From Caulochytrium protostelioides (Eukaryota > Chytridiomycota > Caulochytriomycetes > Caulochytriales > Caulochytriaceae), in assembly GCA_003615045.1 (NCBI GenBank), contig ML014129.1, positions 62,001 to 126,000 of the forward strand: a stretch of DNA of 64,000 nucleotides, given 5' to 3'. Each line of letters opens with the position of its first letter. Within the stretch, counting starts at the first letter, position 1. This document shows positions 46,198-51,867 of this stretch, one piece after another. The notes under the pieces are model-generated. The model saw only the letters and a list, made by a program, of their open reading frames with translations. It searched no databases and was not told the origin of the DNA. Position numbers and translations under genes: made by a program.

Positions 46198-48894
46198 CTA
46201 TGGCTTCGCGGAAGCCCATTCGAGCGCGGGATCCGGCGCGCCGTCGAACGCGCTCGGCAGGTAGGGCGTGGTGGCCGAGTGCGGCGCCTCGGCGGACGGG
46301 GCCGAGTCGCCCGCCGACGCATCCGCGTCGTTCGCCTCCGGGTCCTGGAACGCCGCCGTCGTGGCCGCTGCCGCCGCCGCATGGGCGGGCGGATCGTCGT
46401 GCGCCGCGGCCGCCGTCGTGGCTTGTGAGCGGACCGGCGCCGGCGCCGCCGCCGCCGTGGATCCTGCCGCCGCGGGCGCCGTCACGGGCGCCGCCACGGC
46501 CGTGTCCTCGCTCGGCCGGCTCGTCGTCGTCGTCGTCGAAACGCGGTGGCGGATCGTGGCCGTATCGGACAGCGCGGGCGGAGCGATGCGCCGCGTCTTG
46601 CCAAGGTTCTGGGTGGGCAGCGCGGCGGGCAGCGCGTCTTCTTCCGGGAGCCGGTAGATGGTCACCTCCTGCTGCTTATAGTAGCGGCGGTTCTCATCGT
46701 CGACGAGCACCAGGTTCAGGTAGTATCGCGTGGAGAACTTCTTGTTCACGTTGCGGTAGGTGGGCGTCAGCTCGAACCCGGAAAGGAACAAGCGGATCGG
46801 GATCGATTCGCCGCGCATGGGCGCGCCGTCCATGATTTCGAAGCGCGTTAGGATATCACTCTCGTTGTACTCGTTCGGGGGGGTGCCCGTCGTCTCGCGG
46901 CGGTTGATCGAGAGCTCCATGTACTTGATCTTGATGCGCACGAGCAGAAAGTAGATCTTGCCAAAGATCACGTCGCGCAAGTGATACTTGGACTTATTGT
47001 ACTCGAACTCGAGGTGCAGGCAGTTGCCGCACACCACGGGTTGCGACACCGCATGGCCCTGCCGCTTCCGCACGATCAAGAGACCCGACGGCACGGTGAC
47101 GCAGTACACGTGGGAGACGCCAGTCGCCGGCGCGGCGACGCGTCGGCAATGCTCGGGCTGGACCACGGGCATGCTGCTGGTGGCATCGGTCGCATTGGTC
47201 AGCGGATCGTGGCAGGTGATCAGCCACGACGGCCCGTCGCTCATCGCTGGGATCGACAGGGACACCACGTGGCTGCGGCTCGCGTAGCCGGCCACGAGGT
47301 AGAGGTGAGACAGGGTATCCCGGACGTGGGGGCTCGGGGTCACAAGGGCGGGCAGTGGGCCCGGCAGCGGCACGCCAGCGCCGACGGCCGCCGCCGCGTG
47401 GAGCCCCTGGATTACCGCGCGGAGCTCCGATCGGGTCAGCGCGTTGAAGACCCAGGCCGCGAGCTTCAATGTGGCGACCAGCGGCACCACTGTAGTGCCT
47501 GCAGGCGTGCGGTCCGACGTCGCGCCTTCCGCAAGGGTGGCCGGGGACGGGAGCACGGGAATCGTCCGTGGCGACGCCGCGGCGTCGTCCAGCGATTTGA
47601 TAGAGACTGCTTCATCGTCCGCTCCGCGCTCCGTGCCGTCTAAGCCATCCGCGTCCGCTGGCGGCTTCGGCAACGCTGCCTGGAACCCAAAAATGCGAGA
47701 CCAGCCCGTGTGGGCGATCACCGCGTGCCGGTGGCCGTCATCGACGGTGACCGACACCGTCTGTCCCGCCTCGGCGAGCCAGGCTTGAATGAGCGCCGCG
47801 GCGGGGGCCGTCGGAATTGGCAGCGCGACGGCGCCGGCGGGTGCGGCAGCCGGCGGCATGGCCGCCCCCGCACAGTAATACCCGTAGAGCCGTAGCAGCG
47901 CGTCGGCGCGCGACGGAGTGGCGCAGTCAGCGTCCGCGCAGAGCGCTAGCCAGACAGCGCGCTCCGTCGGCCGTGGCGCGAGGCCACCGGCGACGCCGCC
48001 CATCACGCGGAACGGCTGGCGCTGGTGGTACAACGCGCCGATTTTGGCCTTGGTCCACGCGTCCGTCGCTGGGGTCGATGACGACGACGAGGACGACGAC
48101 GACGACGACGTATACCAGTCGTGAGTCTCGGTCGTCGTGAGTGCGACGCCGCCCGGGATCTGCGGGTCCGCCACAGCGATCACGTGCCGTGTGGGATCGA
48201 GCGGCTTTTCAAGGAAGGCGCGGCCGTCGGCCTGGGGTACGGGCGGCACGTAGTGGATGGTCGGGGGCCCGGTGCCATCTGCCGCACGAGACGGTACGAC
48301 GGCTGCAATCCGGTCGTCGTGCGTGATCGTATGGAACGGCCGGAACCCGCGCTCGGTCAGGACGTCATGGTCGGGCGTGAAGCAGTCCTCGATGCCGACC
48401 TCCATCTTGATGGCGTTGTTGATGTCCGGGGGCATGCGGTACGAGTGGACCCAGACATCGCGCTCCTTGACGACATTGCTCATACGGCGACCCATGACGA
48501 CGCGGACAAAGTAGCGGAGTTTGACGTTGTTGCCAAAGTAGGATTCATAGCGCTTCTCCACGTTGTGGAATGCAAAGTCGTACGTGGCCGTCGCGTCGAG
48601 AACGCCCGGATCCACGAGGCTCTGCGACAGCGTCAAGAACTCGTCGTGGTTGTCGCGGTTGCCGAAGAGCAGCTCGATGTGGCCAATGAACTGGATCCGC
48701 ACACCCTGGTGCTCGATCCGCTTGCCGTCGCGGACGCGCAGCAGCACTTGCCCGCGGACGGTCTCGCCGTCGAAGTACAGCGGGAACCGCGCCTTCTGGT
48801 CCTTGTCGACCTTCATCTCGATGGCCTTGCGGCTATCCTCGTCATCGAAGACGATTTCGATCTCGGCTGTCTTGCCGAGTCCGAACAAGCTCAT
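46198..48894 (-). CDS. VPS26: Retromer subunit VPS26 carrying an in-frame intein
   Basis: 898-residue precursor, ATG at 48894, one exon. Residues 1-170 and 625 to about 770 are a clear Vps26 (arrestin-like) protein: MSLFGLGKTAEIEIVFDDED, YFGNNVKLRYFVRV, then MPPDINNAIKMEVGIED and, after the insertion, CLHLEFEYNKSKYHL, EIMDGAPMRGESIPIRLFLS, STRYYLNLVLVDDENRRYYK then QQEV. Residues 171-624 are an intein, listed separately. The mature protein would be 444 residues, including a ~120-residue Ala/Thr-rich C-terminal tail beyond the usual end. Vps26 pairs with Vps35 and Vps29 to recycle receptors from endosomes to the Golgi. Without splicing, the arrestin fold would be broken, so function should depend on intein removal. 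Confidence 0.95.
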   Translation of the reverse strand: MSLFGLGKTAEIEIVFDDEDSRKAIEMKVDKDQKARFPLYFDGETVRGQVLLRVRDGKRIEHQGVRIQFIGHIELLFGNRDNHDEFLTLSQSLVDPGVLDATATYDFAFHNVEKRYESYFGNNVKLRYFVRVVMGRRMSNVVKERDVWVHSYRMPPDINNAIKMEVGIEDCFTPDHDVLTERGFRPFHTITHDDRIAAVVPSRAADGTGPPTIHYVPPVPQADGRAFLEKPLDPTRHVIAVADPQIPGGVALTTTETHDWYTSSSSSSSSSSSTPATDAWTKAKIGALYHQRQPFRVMGGVAGGLAPRPTERAVWLALCADADCATPSRADALLRLYGYYCAGAAMPPAAAPAGAVALPIPTAPAAALIQAWLAEAGQTVSVTVDDGHRHAVIAHTGWSRIFGFQAALPKPPADADGLDGTERGADDEAVSIKSLDDAAASPRTIPVLPSPATLAEGATSDRTPAGTTVVPLVATLKLAAWVFNALTRSELRAVIQGLHAAAAVGAGVPLPGPLPALVTPSPHVRDTLSHLYLVAGYASRSHVVSLSIPAMSDGPSWLITCHDPLTNATDATSSMPVVQPEHCRRVAAPATGVSHVYCVTVPSGLLIVRKRQGHAVSQPVVCGNCLHLEFEYNKSKYHLRDVIFGKIYFLLVRIKIKYMELSINRRETTGTPPNEYNESDILTRFEIMDGAPMRGESIPIRLFLSGFELTPTYRNVNKKFSTRYYLNLVLVDDENRRYYKQQEVTIYRLPEEDALPAALPTQNLGKTRRIAPPALSDTATIRHRVSTTTTTSRPSEDTAVAAPVTAPAAAGSTAAAAPAPVRSQATTAAAAHDDPPAHAAAAAATTAAFQDPEANDADASAGDSAPSAEAPHSATTPYLPSAFDGAPDPALEWASAKP
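47023..48384 (-). mobile_element. VPS26 intein, 454 residues, eroded LAGLIDADG endonuclease
   Basis: Starts at Cys171 (codon 48384-48382) and ends with Asn624 (47025-47023). The +1 residue is Cys (47022-47020). Block A is CFTPDHDVLTERGFRPF. Block B is GVALTTTETHDW, with the conserved T..H. Block F is VYCVTVPSGLLIVRK, typical of eukaryotic and viral RNA-polymerase inteins. Block G is VVCGN|C; the penultimate His is Gly, as in other GN-ending inteins. A Ser run follows block B. In the middle, ALLRLYGYYCAGA (~162-174) and RSELRAVIQGLHAAAAVGAG (~318-337) sit where the two LAGLIDADG helices belong, but both catalytic acidic residues are absent. Homing activity is probably lost. Splicing residues Cys1, His, Asn and Cys+1 are intact, so splicing is expected. 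Confidence 0.9.
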
Positions 48895-49906: not shown

Positions 49907-50812
49907 GGGGGACGACGGGTCCACAACACGCGCATCCCACCTCATCCTATCTACGCCTTCTTCCCCTGGTTGGACTGCTACGAAAAAGGATCTGAGCCGT
50001 CTTCTCACTCCCCGATGGTGTGAGTTGGTACTCATTGACAGTATCCACGTTCGAGGAGCCATGGAAGTTGGCCATACTCTTGCATATCCGGACATCTTTG
50101 GGGAGCCTGGGAACGATATGGCGGAGGCCTCTCAGAGATGGTCATGAAGGCACCGGTGGAGTTCAGATGAGGACCTGATGGTCTATACAGCTCGTCGTGC
50201 TCCATGGCGTCATCGTGCTGGTGGCCGGCGCCACGGGCGCCTGATCTCGCACGCGAACGCCAAACTGTGGCGTTCACGACCGCGCTTTCCGGCGCCGGCC
50301 TGCATGACGACGAATCGCCTCGCTCGATGCTGGCTTTCCAACGCCATGGGATGGTATGGTATGGTTTGGCTTGGCTTGACTTGGCTGGGCCGCGTCGTGG
50401 ACTTTCTGTTGATCCTTCCGGATGGCGTGCCGCATGCATCGGGGAGCTGCATCCGAGCGTGCTCCGTGATTCCCGGCCGTGGCTGCTCCGACGGACGGAC
50501 GGAAGGACGGACGGACGGAAGGAGCAAGCCACGGCCAGACGGCGGTCGCGGCTGCGGCATCGGCGTTGGCCCGCCGCCTTCATCACTTCATCACTTTTTC
50601 CGGTATGGCGCACGGCACGGCCAGCGCCGCGCGACGGCACGCGGGGAGGGTTCTCCGGATGGAAACTCAGCCGAGCTCTCCACCGCAACATGGAGCGCCC
50701 GGACTCCCGGGCGTCCGGTCTGCCGAGTATGCCGCCAGGCCCACGGCGACACCACCCATGCACGCCAGTCGACTGGGTCCACGGCGTCCGCGCAGGAGCA
50801 GCAGGAGCCTCT

Positions 50813-50896
<84 letters not shown>

Positions 50897-51616
50897 GCGA
50901 CAACAACAGCGGTGTCGGCGGCTGTTCAACAGAATCACGACCCGCGGTCGACCACCGGCCGACGCTAGCTCCTATTCGACAGGGAATCGGGTGTGTGCCG
51001 CCCGAATCACCGTCACGCGACGCGACGATGGGATGGAGCCAAACCAAGCGGTAACCGTTGGGATGTGGATGTCGGCGTTGTTGATGATGCACGCCACACT
51101 CGCCGCATGCTACCGCGTCTCCCGCTGGCTCGCCGCACACCGACCCCACACCTCGGGCTCCGCTCTCCGGCCCTTCCCCCCGCCGCGGCAAGGTCCCGCC
51201 GCCGGCCATCGCGCCTCCTCTCGGGACGGCTCGCACCCCCGTCGCCGCCCTGCGATCCCGCGCCGGCCGTCCTGCCGCGAATCTCGATTTCGTCGACGGG
51301 ACGGTCGATATCGATACCGCCGTCGGCGTCCAGCGTCTCCTGGCTCGGCAGACGGACTATACTCGGCGATCTCGGGTCATCTCGCTGATCCTGAGCACGT
51401 GCGTTCGCATGCCCGACGCTCGTCGAGCTGATCGAGCGCTGCTCTCCCCTCGGCACAGCGGCGCTTGCTGGCTTCGGTCGCCGCCGCCGGCGCTCGCGCC
51501 CTCCACTGCGACGGCTCCCGCGCATTGGTAGCGGGGCCGCGCACGGCTTTCTGGCGCCGAGCTTCTCCCGGACGATCGCGGGCCGGCGCGACCCGTCGTC
51601 GTAGGCCGCGGCCAGG
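49907..51616. other. Intergenic region with CAG repeat
   Basis: No supported gene. A 417-codon plus-strand frame (50178-51431) spans the CAG repeat and would encode polyGln, with a CRVCRQAHG stretch before it. The rest is Arg-rich and unconvincing. The sequence before 51617 includes the kinase promoter. Confidence 0.4.
50814..50889. repeat. (CAG)n microsatellite, about 25 units
   Basis: Nearly pure CAG run followed by CAG/CAA/CGA-type variants to about 50912. It encodes polyGln in one plus frame and polySer or polyAla in others. I cannot tell whether it is coding. Confidence 0.95.
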
Positions 51617-51835
51617 ATGATTTTTGGCCCATCGTTCACGGCCAACGAGTGCTGGCTCGCCAGCGCCCATGGCGGCCACGGCATTGGCCAGCGCACGGCC
51701 GCCAGCAATGCTCCCGCGCCCTGCACCCGCATCCGGCTTCCGCATACCGCGGATCGGTCCCGACGGGGCGGATGCTATGTCGGCTCGCACTCGCCCCGCG
51801 CGTCGGGGCGTGCCGCCACCGCCGCCGACGATGAA

Positions 51836-51867
<32 letters not shown>

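Follow-up and report, generated by a model that had tools for sequence, protein, structure and literature searches.

Inteins in nuclear genes are known from PRP8, VMA1 and RNA polymerase (PMC5784728, PMC1635734, as far as their available parts go). In the accessible part of PMC5784728 eukaryotic inteins are described as scarce, three in Fusarium fujikuroi are the example of several per genome, and trafficking proteins do not occur in the table of most common inteins; hosts with adaptin, WASH-7, dymeclin, Mo25 or RPN11 are likewise absent from this table. RNA polymerase and PRP8 inteins are also treated in the available parts of PMC1635734 and PMC6805012, the latter with PRP8 inteins at seven sites (not mapped to those of the genome considered here). 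Here, a 454-residue insert in the retromer subunit VPS26 of Caulochytrium protostelioides is described. The gene lies in a window of 64,000 nucleotides (assembly GCA_003615045.1, contig ML014129.1, positions 62,001 to 126,000), to which all coordinates refer. The insert is most likely an endonuclease-dead intein which would excise itself from the one VPS26 found. Judged from its conserved residues, it would use the same chemistry as the nuclear inteins named above, and it sits, as they do, at a conserved host site; it differs from the well-known ones in a penultimate Gly instead of the standard His. VPS26, a retromer subunit, is a new host for a known kind of element and is added to the list of intein hosts.

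The VPS26 gene and its insert

The gene and its parts are as follows.

46198..48894 (including stop), minus strand: VPS26 gene, putative intein-bearing precursor reading frame of 898 residues, open throughout, with Vps26 matches
48385..48894, minus strand: N-extein, VPS26 residues 1-170, ending ...MEVGIED, with matches to PF03643 and to Vps26 chains of the PDB
47023..48384, minus strand: putative intein, residues 171-624, 454 residues from Cys1 to Asn454, matched with 98.9 bits by a model of 54 inteins that excludes VPS26
47020..47022, minus strand: Cys+1, residue 1 of the C-extein, the conserved Cys of GIE[ED]C in relatives
46198..47022, minus strand: C-extein, VPS26 residues 625-898 and stop, starting CLHLEFEY, supported by Pfam, PDB and the alignment of the rejoined flanks

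PF03643 (Vps26) matched two stretches of the 898-residue protein (E 2.6e-114 for the whole protein), and in solved Vps26 chains residues 10-172 and 624-752 aligned with neighbouring chain positions (5-166 and 164-292 of 6h7w_J). The insert starts with CFTPDHDVLT and ends with PVVCGN, followed by Cys625; it comprises 1362 nucleotides, a multiple of three, and VPS26 without it has 444 residues. The first-pass annotation had placed a split at these positions, directly before the Cys of GIED|C, and its coordinates, lengths and mature size were confirmed.

For the comparison of sites, 120 of 188 matching VPS26 relatives were listed, and the counts given here refer to these. The insertion site was unbroken in all of them, reading GIEECLHIE in 75, GIEDCLHIE in 43 and GIEDSLHIE in two; the +1 position was thus Cys in 118 and Ser in two. 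The rejoined flanks gave a single alignment across the junction in 120/120 relatives, and were 72% identical to the chytrid protein P0002. The best-scoring relative among the matches listed was that of the chytrid Phlyctochytrium planicorne. In the assembly of the organism itself (20.9 Mb, 337 contigs), this reading frame was the sole match to the VPS26 protein at E <= 10; a second, intein-free VPS26 was not found in an exon-by-exon search of this possibly incomplete assembly.

Membership of an intein family

Library intein models were applied to the own genome and led to inteins in other genes. The first RPB1 intein as a genome query added those of threonyl-tRNA synthetase (ThrRS) and PRP8; the ThrRS intein as a query led to no further gene. 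The VPS26 insert was recognised by way of related inteins (ThrRS, RPB1, PRP8) in the same genome. Comparison with the ThrRS, PRP8b, RPB1a and PRP8c inteins gave z values of 15.7, 10.6, 6.9 and 6.1, respectively, against -0.6 to 2.8, without alignment, for the seven other inteins of the genome (200 shuffles each). A profile comparison with the four gave a probability of 98.3 and E 2.3e-14, covering insert residues 307-454 only.

A search of the protein database with the ThrRS intein yielded 182 proteins at E <= 1 among 8000 candidates scored, of which 120 were listed. From 119 of these, 120 intein segments were obtained; dereplication left 56, and removal of six with 700 or more residues left 50 (from 49 proteins), which together with the four own-genome inteins, VPS26 being excluded, made up the family model of 54. 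The dymeclin protein P0126 was among those left out. This model matched the VPS26 protein at exactly residues 171-624, end to end (model positions 1-442), with 98.9 bits. The best of 500 shuffled sequences reached 4.1 bits, and none of the seven remaining inteins of the genome exceeded 6.0; by this match to the model a chance resemblance is excluded. In a six-frame scan of the window for open stretches of at least 50 codons no other family match appeared, the next scoring 3.8 bits (E 0.81). By its position, its ends, its splicing residues and its family membership, the insert is supported as an intein, as had been proposed from the letters of this gene.

Splicing residues

In protein splicing, according to the available part of PMC4031507, the nucleophiles stand at positions 1 and +1 and the terminal residue is Asn, with B:7, B:10, F:4 and the penultimate His as helpers. 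The corresponding blocks of the insert are listed here with their conservation in the family.

48343..48384, minus strand: splicing block A, CFTPDHDVLTERGF, nucleophile Cys1 (family Cys1 53/54, Thr10 54/54, Gly13 54/54)
48121..48132, minus strand: core of splicing block B, T85-E-T-H88 (family Thr85 47/54, His88 54/54)
47065..47112, minus strand: splicing block F, HVYCVTVPSGLLIVRK, with Cys428 at F:4 (family Cys428 54/54)
47023..47046, minus strand: splicing block G, SQPVVCGN, Gly453-Asn454 (family Gly 48/54; Asn 45/54 and Gln 5/54)

The VPS26 intein thus retains Cys1, Thr85, His88, Cys428 and Asn454, followed by Cys+1, and the alignment of the family bears out the blocks A, B, F and G and the Asn-Cys end that had been read from the sequence. 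In the 50 dereplicated family segments, the residue following the last one was C, S or T in 47.

The four related inteins of ThrRS (L028), the first site of RPB1 (L020) and the second and third sites of PRP8 (L029) have the same block order, and they share with the VPS26 intein a start of the type CxxxDHxLLTxxGF, the TxxH motif, Cys at F:4 and a Gly-Asn or Gly-Gln end.

Decay of the endonuclease

Between the splicing parts, relics of two LAGLIDADG motifs were found.

47857..47895, minus strand: relic of motif 1, LRLYGYYCAGAAM (family consensus LELYGYWLGDG), with Asp replaced by Gly173 (family Asp 42/54)
47377..47421, minus strand: relic of motif 2, RAVIQGLHAAAAVGA (family GLRxADG), with Asp replaced by Ala332 (family Asp 48/54)

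An active LAGLIDADG endonuclease would carry an acidic residue in each motif; both catalytic Asp are lost in the VPS26 intein, and Thr192 stands where 46/54 family members have Lys. Of 55 family rows, 41 have both Asp, VPS26 being among the 14 without at least one. The ThrRS and RPB1 copies keep both, whereas the VPS26 copy has lost them and has the longest branch. It had been regarded as a homing element; as such, the present copy looks dead. We read the VPS26 intein as one which has lost homing and probably kept splicing.

Among the strongly conserved columns, the VPS26 intein keeps 19/26 in the splicing parts and 22/45 in the endonuclease part (Fisher p 0.04). The decay is clearer in PRP8b (23/26 and 25/48) and PRP8c (26/26 and 23/47), and no such decay is seen in the inteins of ThrRS (26/26 and 44/46) or RPB1a (21/26 and 36/48).

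Proposed splicing and alternative explanations

The explanation favoured, to which we assign a probability of about 0.9, is that of a class 1 intein whose LAGLIDADG homing endonuclease has decayed and which would splice itself from the VPS26 precursor. The precursor would be translated as 898 residues; Cys171 (Cys1 of the intein) would attack the Asp170-Cys171 bond with the aid of Thr85 and His88, Cys625 (+1) would take over the N-extein, and Asn624 would cyclise. The expected products would be the free intein of 454 residues and a VPS26 of 444 residues in which the GIEDCLHLEFEY site is restored and whose ligated junction peptide would read ...GIEDCLHLEFEYNK. The intein may have arrived by homing or by intragenomic spread of the family which is present here also in ThrRS, RPB1 and PRP8, and elsewhere in genes for RPB2 and DNA polymerases, some of which bear viral names. 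Once the intein was fixed, its endonuclease would have decayed, and splicing would have been retained, we propose, because the VPS26 gene is the sole one found. The gene would be misdescribed by models in which the insert stays in the mature VPS26 or is spliced out as an intron.

Several results weigh against an intein, or against one that splices. The insert alone gave nothing credible with Pfam, NCBIfam or PDB sequences: no library intein model matched it, and the lone Pfam row was IMUP (E 0.16). A protein-database search with residues 171-624 found none at E <= 10 among 8000 candidates scored. Identity to the related inteins is only 19-29%, and the C-terminal part of the family gave no credible alignment with the seven other own-genome inteins (probability 0.3). 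The penultimate residue is Gly453 instead of His; 48/54 family members have Gly there as well. The four relatives in the same genome retain more of the conserved splicing columns (21 to 26 of 26) than the 19/26 seen here, and the splicing and endonuclease parts differ weakly in conservation. With regard to Gly453, the penultimate His is an assisting, not an absolute, residue in inteins; work on splicing without it is cited in the available part of PMC4031507.

The missing library match would also suit an ordinary domain of VPS26 peculiar to this lineage. Such a domain has next to no credence and was rejected: the insert matches an intein family which occurs in unrelated proteins (ThrRS, RPB1, PRP8 and many from the database), and nearly all segments of this family are followed by C, S or T. 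The first-pass annotation had also held that absence of any intein-family match would refute an intein; this test would mislead, since the insert alone has no library match, yet belongs to the family by way of its own-genome relatives.

Equally far-fetched is a spliceosomal intron which is open in frame by chance. Up to a distance of 60 bases from both ends, there are 32 in-frame pairs of splice ends of the three kinds GT-AG, GC-AG and AT-AC, eight of them GT-AG, but each would cost VPS26 conserved residues or leave part of the intein in place. The six registers which restore VPS26 exactly would have the ends AC-CA, CT-AA, TG-AC, GC-CT, CT-TG and TT-GC; none is GT-AG, GC-AG or AT-AC. The host frame of the insert has no stop codon, each of the five remaining frames between 4 and 14, and the translation fits an intein family from end to end. 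An intron was therefore rejected, lacking recognised splice sites at the boundaries that restore VPS26 while its translation is that of an intein family. The third-position GC content is 0.83 in the insert; the flanks have 0.876 and 0.885.

An intein no longer able to splice, present as an inserted domain or capable of cleavage only, would leave VPS26 as an 898-residue protein or in two pieces. The great divergence of the insert (end branches of 3.85 and 5.32 in the trees) and the incomplete set of conserved splicing columns would fit this, but the insert retains its two nucleophiles, Asn as its last residue and the residues of block B and F:4. The insertion would moreover interrupt a stretch that is unbroken in every listed relative, in a host part as conserved as described above, and a second VPS26 was not found in the assembly. 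We consider this explanation quite unlikely.

A bolder extension, improbable as a whole, would combine a giant-virus-linked family that has spread through cellular genes of some microbial eukaryotes, including genes for vesicle sorting, with a dead VPS26 copy kept for conditional splicing, e.g., redox-controlled via Cys1, Cys428 and Cys+1. Were this so, conditional splicing of VPS26 could switch on retromer assembly post-translationally.

The family in other organisms and the origin of the VPS26 intein

Rpb2 domains were present in 72 of the 120 listed proteins with family inteins (Pfam column); PF03643 was found in none of these 120. By the family model, P0165, named as a Pandoravirus aubagnensis DNA polymerase type-B, and P0198, named by its source as an RNA polymerase from a viral metagenome, carry inteins of the same family. 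For Pandoravirus, inteins in polB have been described (PMC6950457; not matched to P0165). Inteins of RPB2 and family B DNA polymerases belong to the family of the VPS26 intein; their hosts are replication and transcription genes. P0199 from Coemansia, by its domain accessions a protein with PRP8 domains, is among the listed matches. An intein of the same family was also noted in P0218, named as glutaminyl-tRNA synthetase (GlnRS) of Sorochytrium milnesiophthora, and further hosts are P0135 and P0204, with Mo25 and RPN11 domains.

The same family was found in trafficking proteins, namely P0125 (adaptin), P0124 (WASH-7) and P0126 (dymeclin), from the sources jgi and ena. Their hosts and sites differ from those of the VPS26 intein, and P0125 keeps the endonuclease motifs (LGDG, ADGD), unlike the latter. 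The earlier claim that no intein was known in a membrane-trafficking protein stands for the literature searched, and falls for uncharacterised proteins in the database with one of these three domains. The open-licence literature searched yielded no description of VPS26 as an intein host; in the accessible part of PMC8778642 the two words sought, one of them intein, stand apart, and in that of PMC5785209 an intein serves as a purification tag.

In a library scan of ten family members, four matched LAGLIDADG_3 (best E 0.00069) and two intein_Nterm (best E 0.0099); a profile of ten members had no PDB chain at E <= 1. This points to an intein family which is weakly or not matched by domain libraries, as judged from the ten scanned, and which occurs in many kinds of proteins. 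When VPS26 was left out, the family could be aligned with those seven own-genome inteins that lie outside it. The alignment (probability 90.5, E 1.4e-6) began at Cys1 and reached family position 311 of 435, and Cys1, TxxH, GDG and ADG corresponded in position. In a scan of viral sequences the RPB1 intein by itself found no relative; with an alignment of four sequences three loci were found.

Trees were constructed from rows of up to 600 residues only, with 51 rows and, without PRP8b, with 50. In the 51-row tree the VPS26 intein, with an end branch of 3.85, joined PRP8b, a join that was flagged as possibly false; in the 50-row tree, once PRP8b was left out, it had no supported neighbour. The family members of the own genome did not form a single group (four changes, at least three of them forced). 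Direct intragenomic copying as the source of the VPS26 intein is neither shown nor excluded, because the trees give it no nearest relative.

Other inteins of the genome

The genome contains at least 12 inteins in nine genes, VPS26 included: IleRS, a glycosyltransferase group 1 protein, TrpRS, RPC1, RPB2, RPB1 (two), ThrRS, PRP8 (three) and VPS26. The host classes are supported by Pfam; the labels IleRS, TrpRS, ThrRS, RPC1, RPB1 and RPB2 are our reading of the sequences. Six of the seven inteins outside the family matched Pfam Intein_splicing, four of them above the cut-off; the seventh, the first PRP8 intein, had a Hom_end_hint match just below it. With endonucleases from intact to dead, decay and spread of inteins could be traced within one nucleus.

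Three aminoacyl-tRNA synthetases (L015, L017 and L028, apparently for Ile, Trp and Thr) contain one intein each. The three in PRP8 (L029) include a mini-intein of 163 residues; L020 (RPB1) has two. An intein of RPC1 (L018:3118-4374, plus strand) and one of RPB1 (L020:4358-5605, minus strand) are both located at DTAVK|TAETGY. Of 1239 aligned bases, 1138 are identical between the RPC1 intein and the second RPB1 intein, against 96 and 106 in the 150-base flanks; the recent jump of an intein between the paralogous RPC1 and RPB1 genes in this nucleus is visible here. L030 (G000:C112:40080-40253) resembles the first RPB1 intein weakly (E 0.012) and contains an internal stop; its open stretch of 71 residues is perhaps due to chance.

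Trinucleotide repeats were noted within the VPS26 intein and elsewhere in the window, in the latter case within a long open reading frame at each position.

48076..48110, no strand: trinucleotide repeat, translated as a run of serines, located in the VPS26 intein after block B and before the endonuclease relic (repeat search and translation)
50792-50898: array of GCA, 35.7 copies
51826-51867: array of CGA, 14 copies

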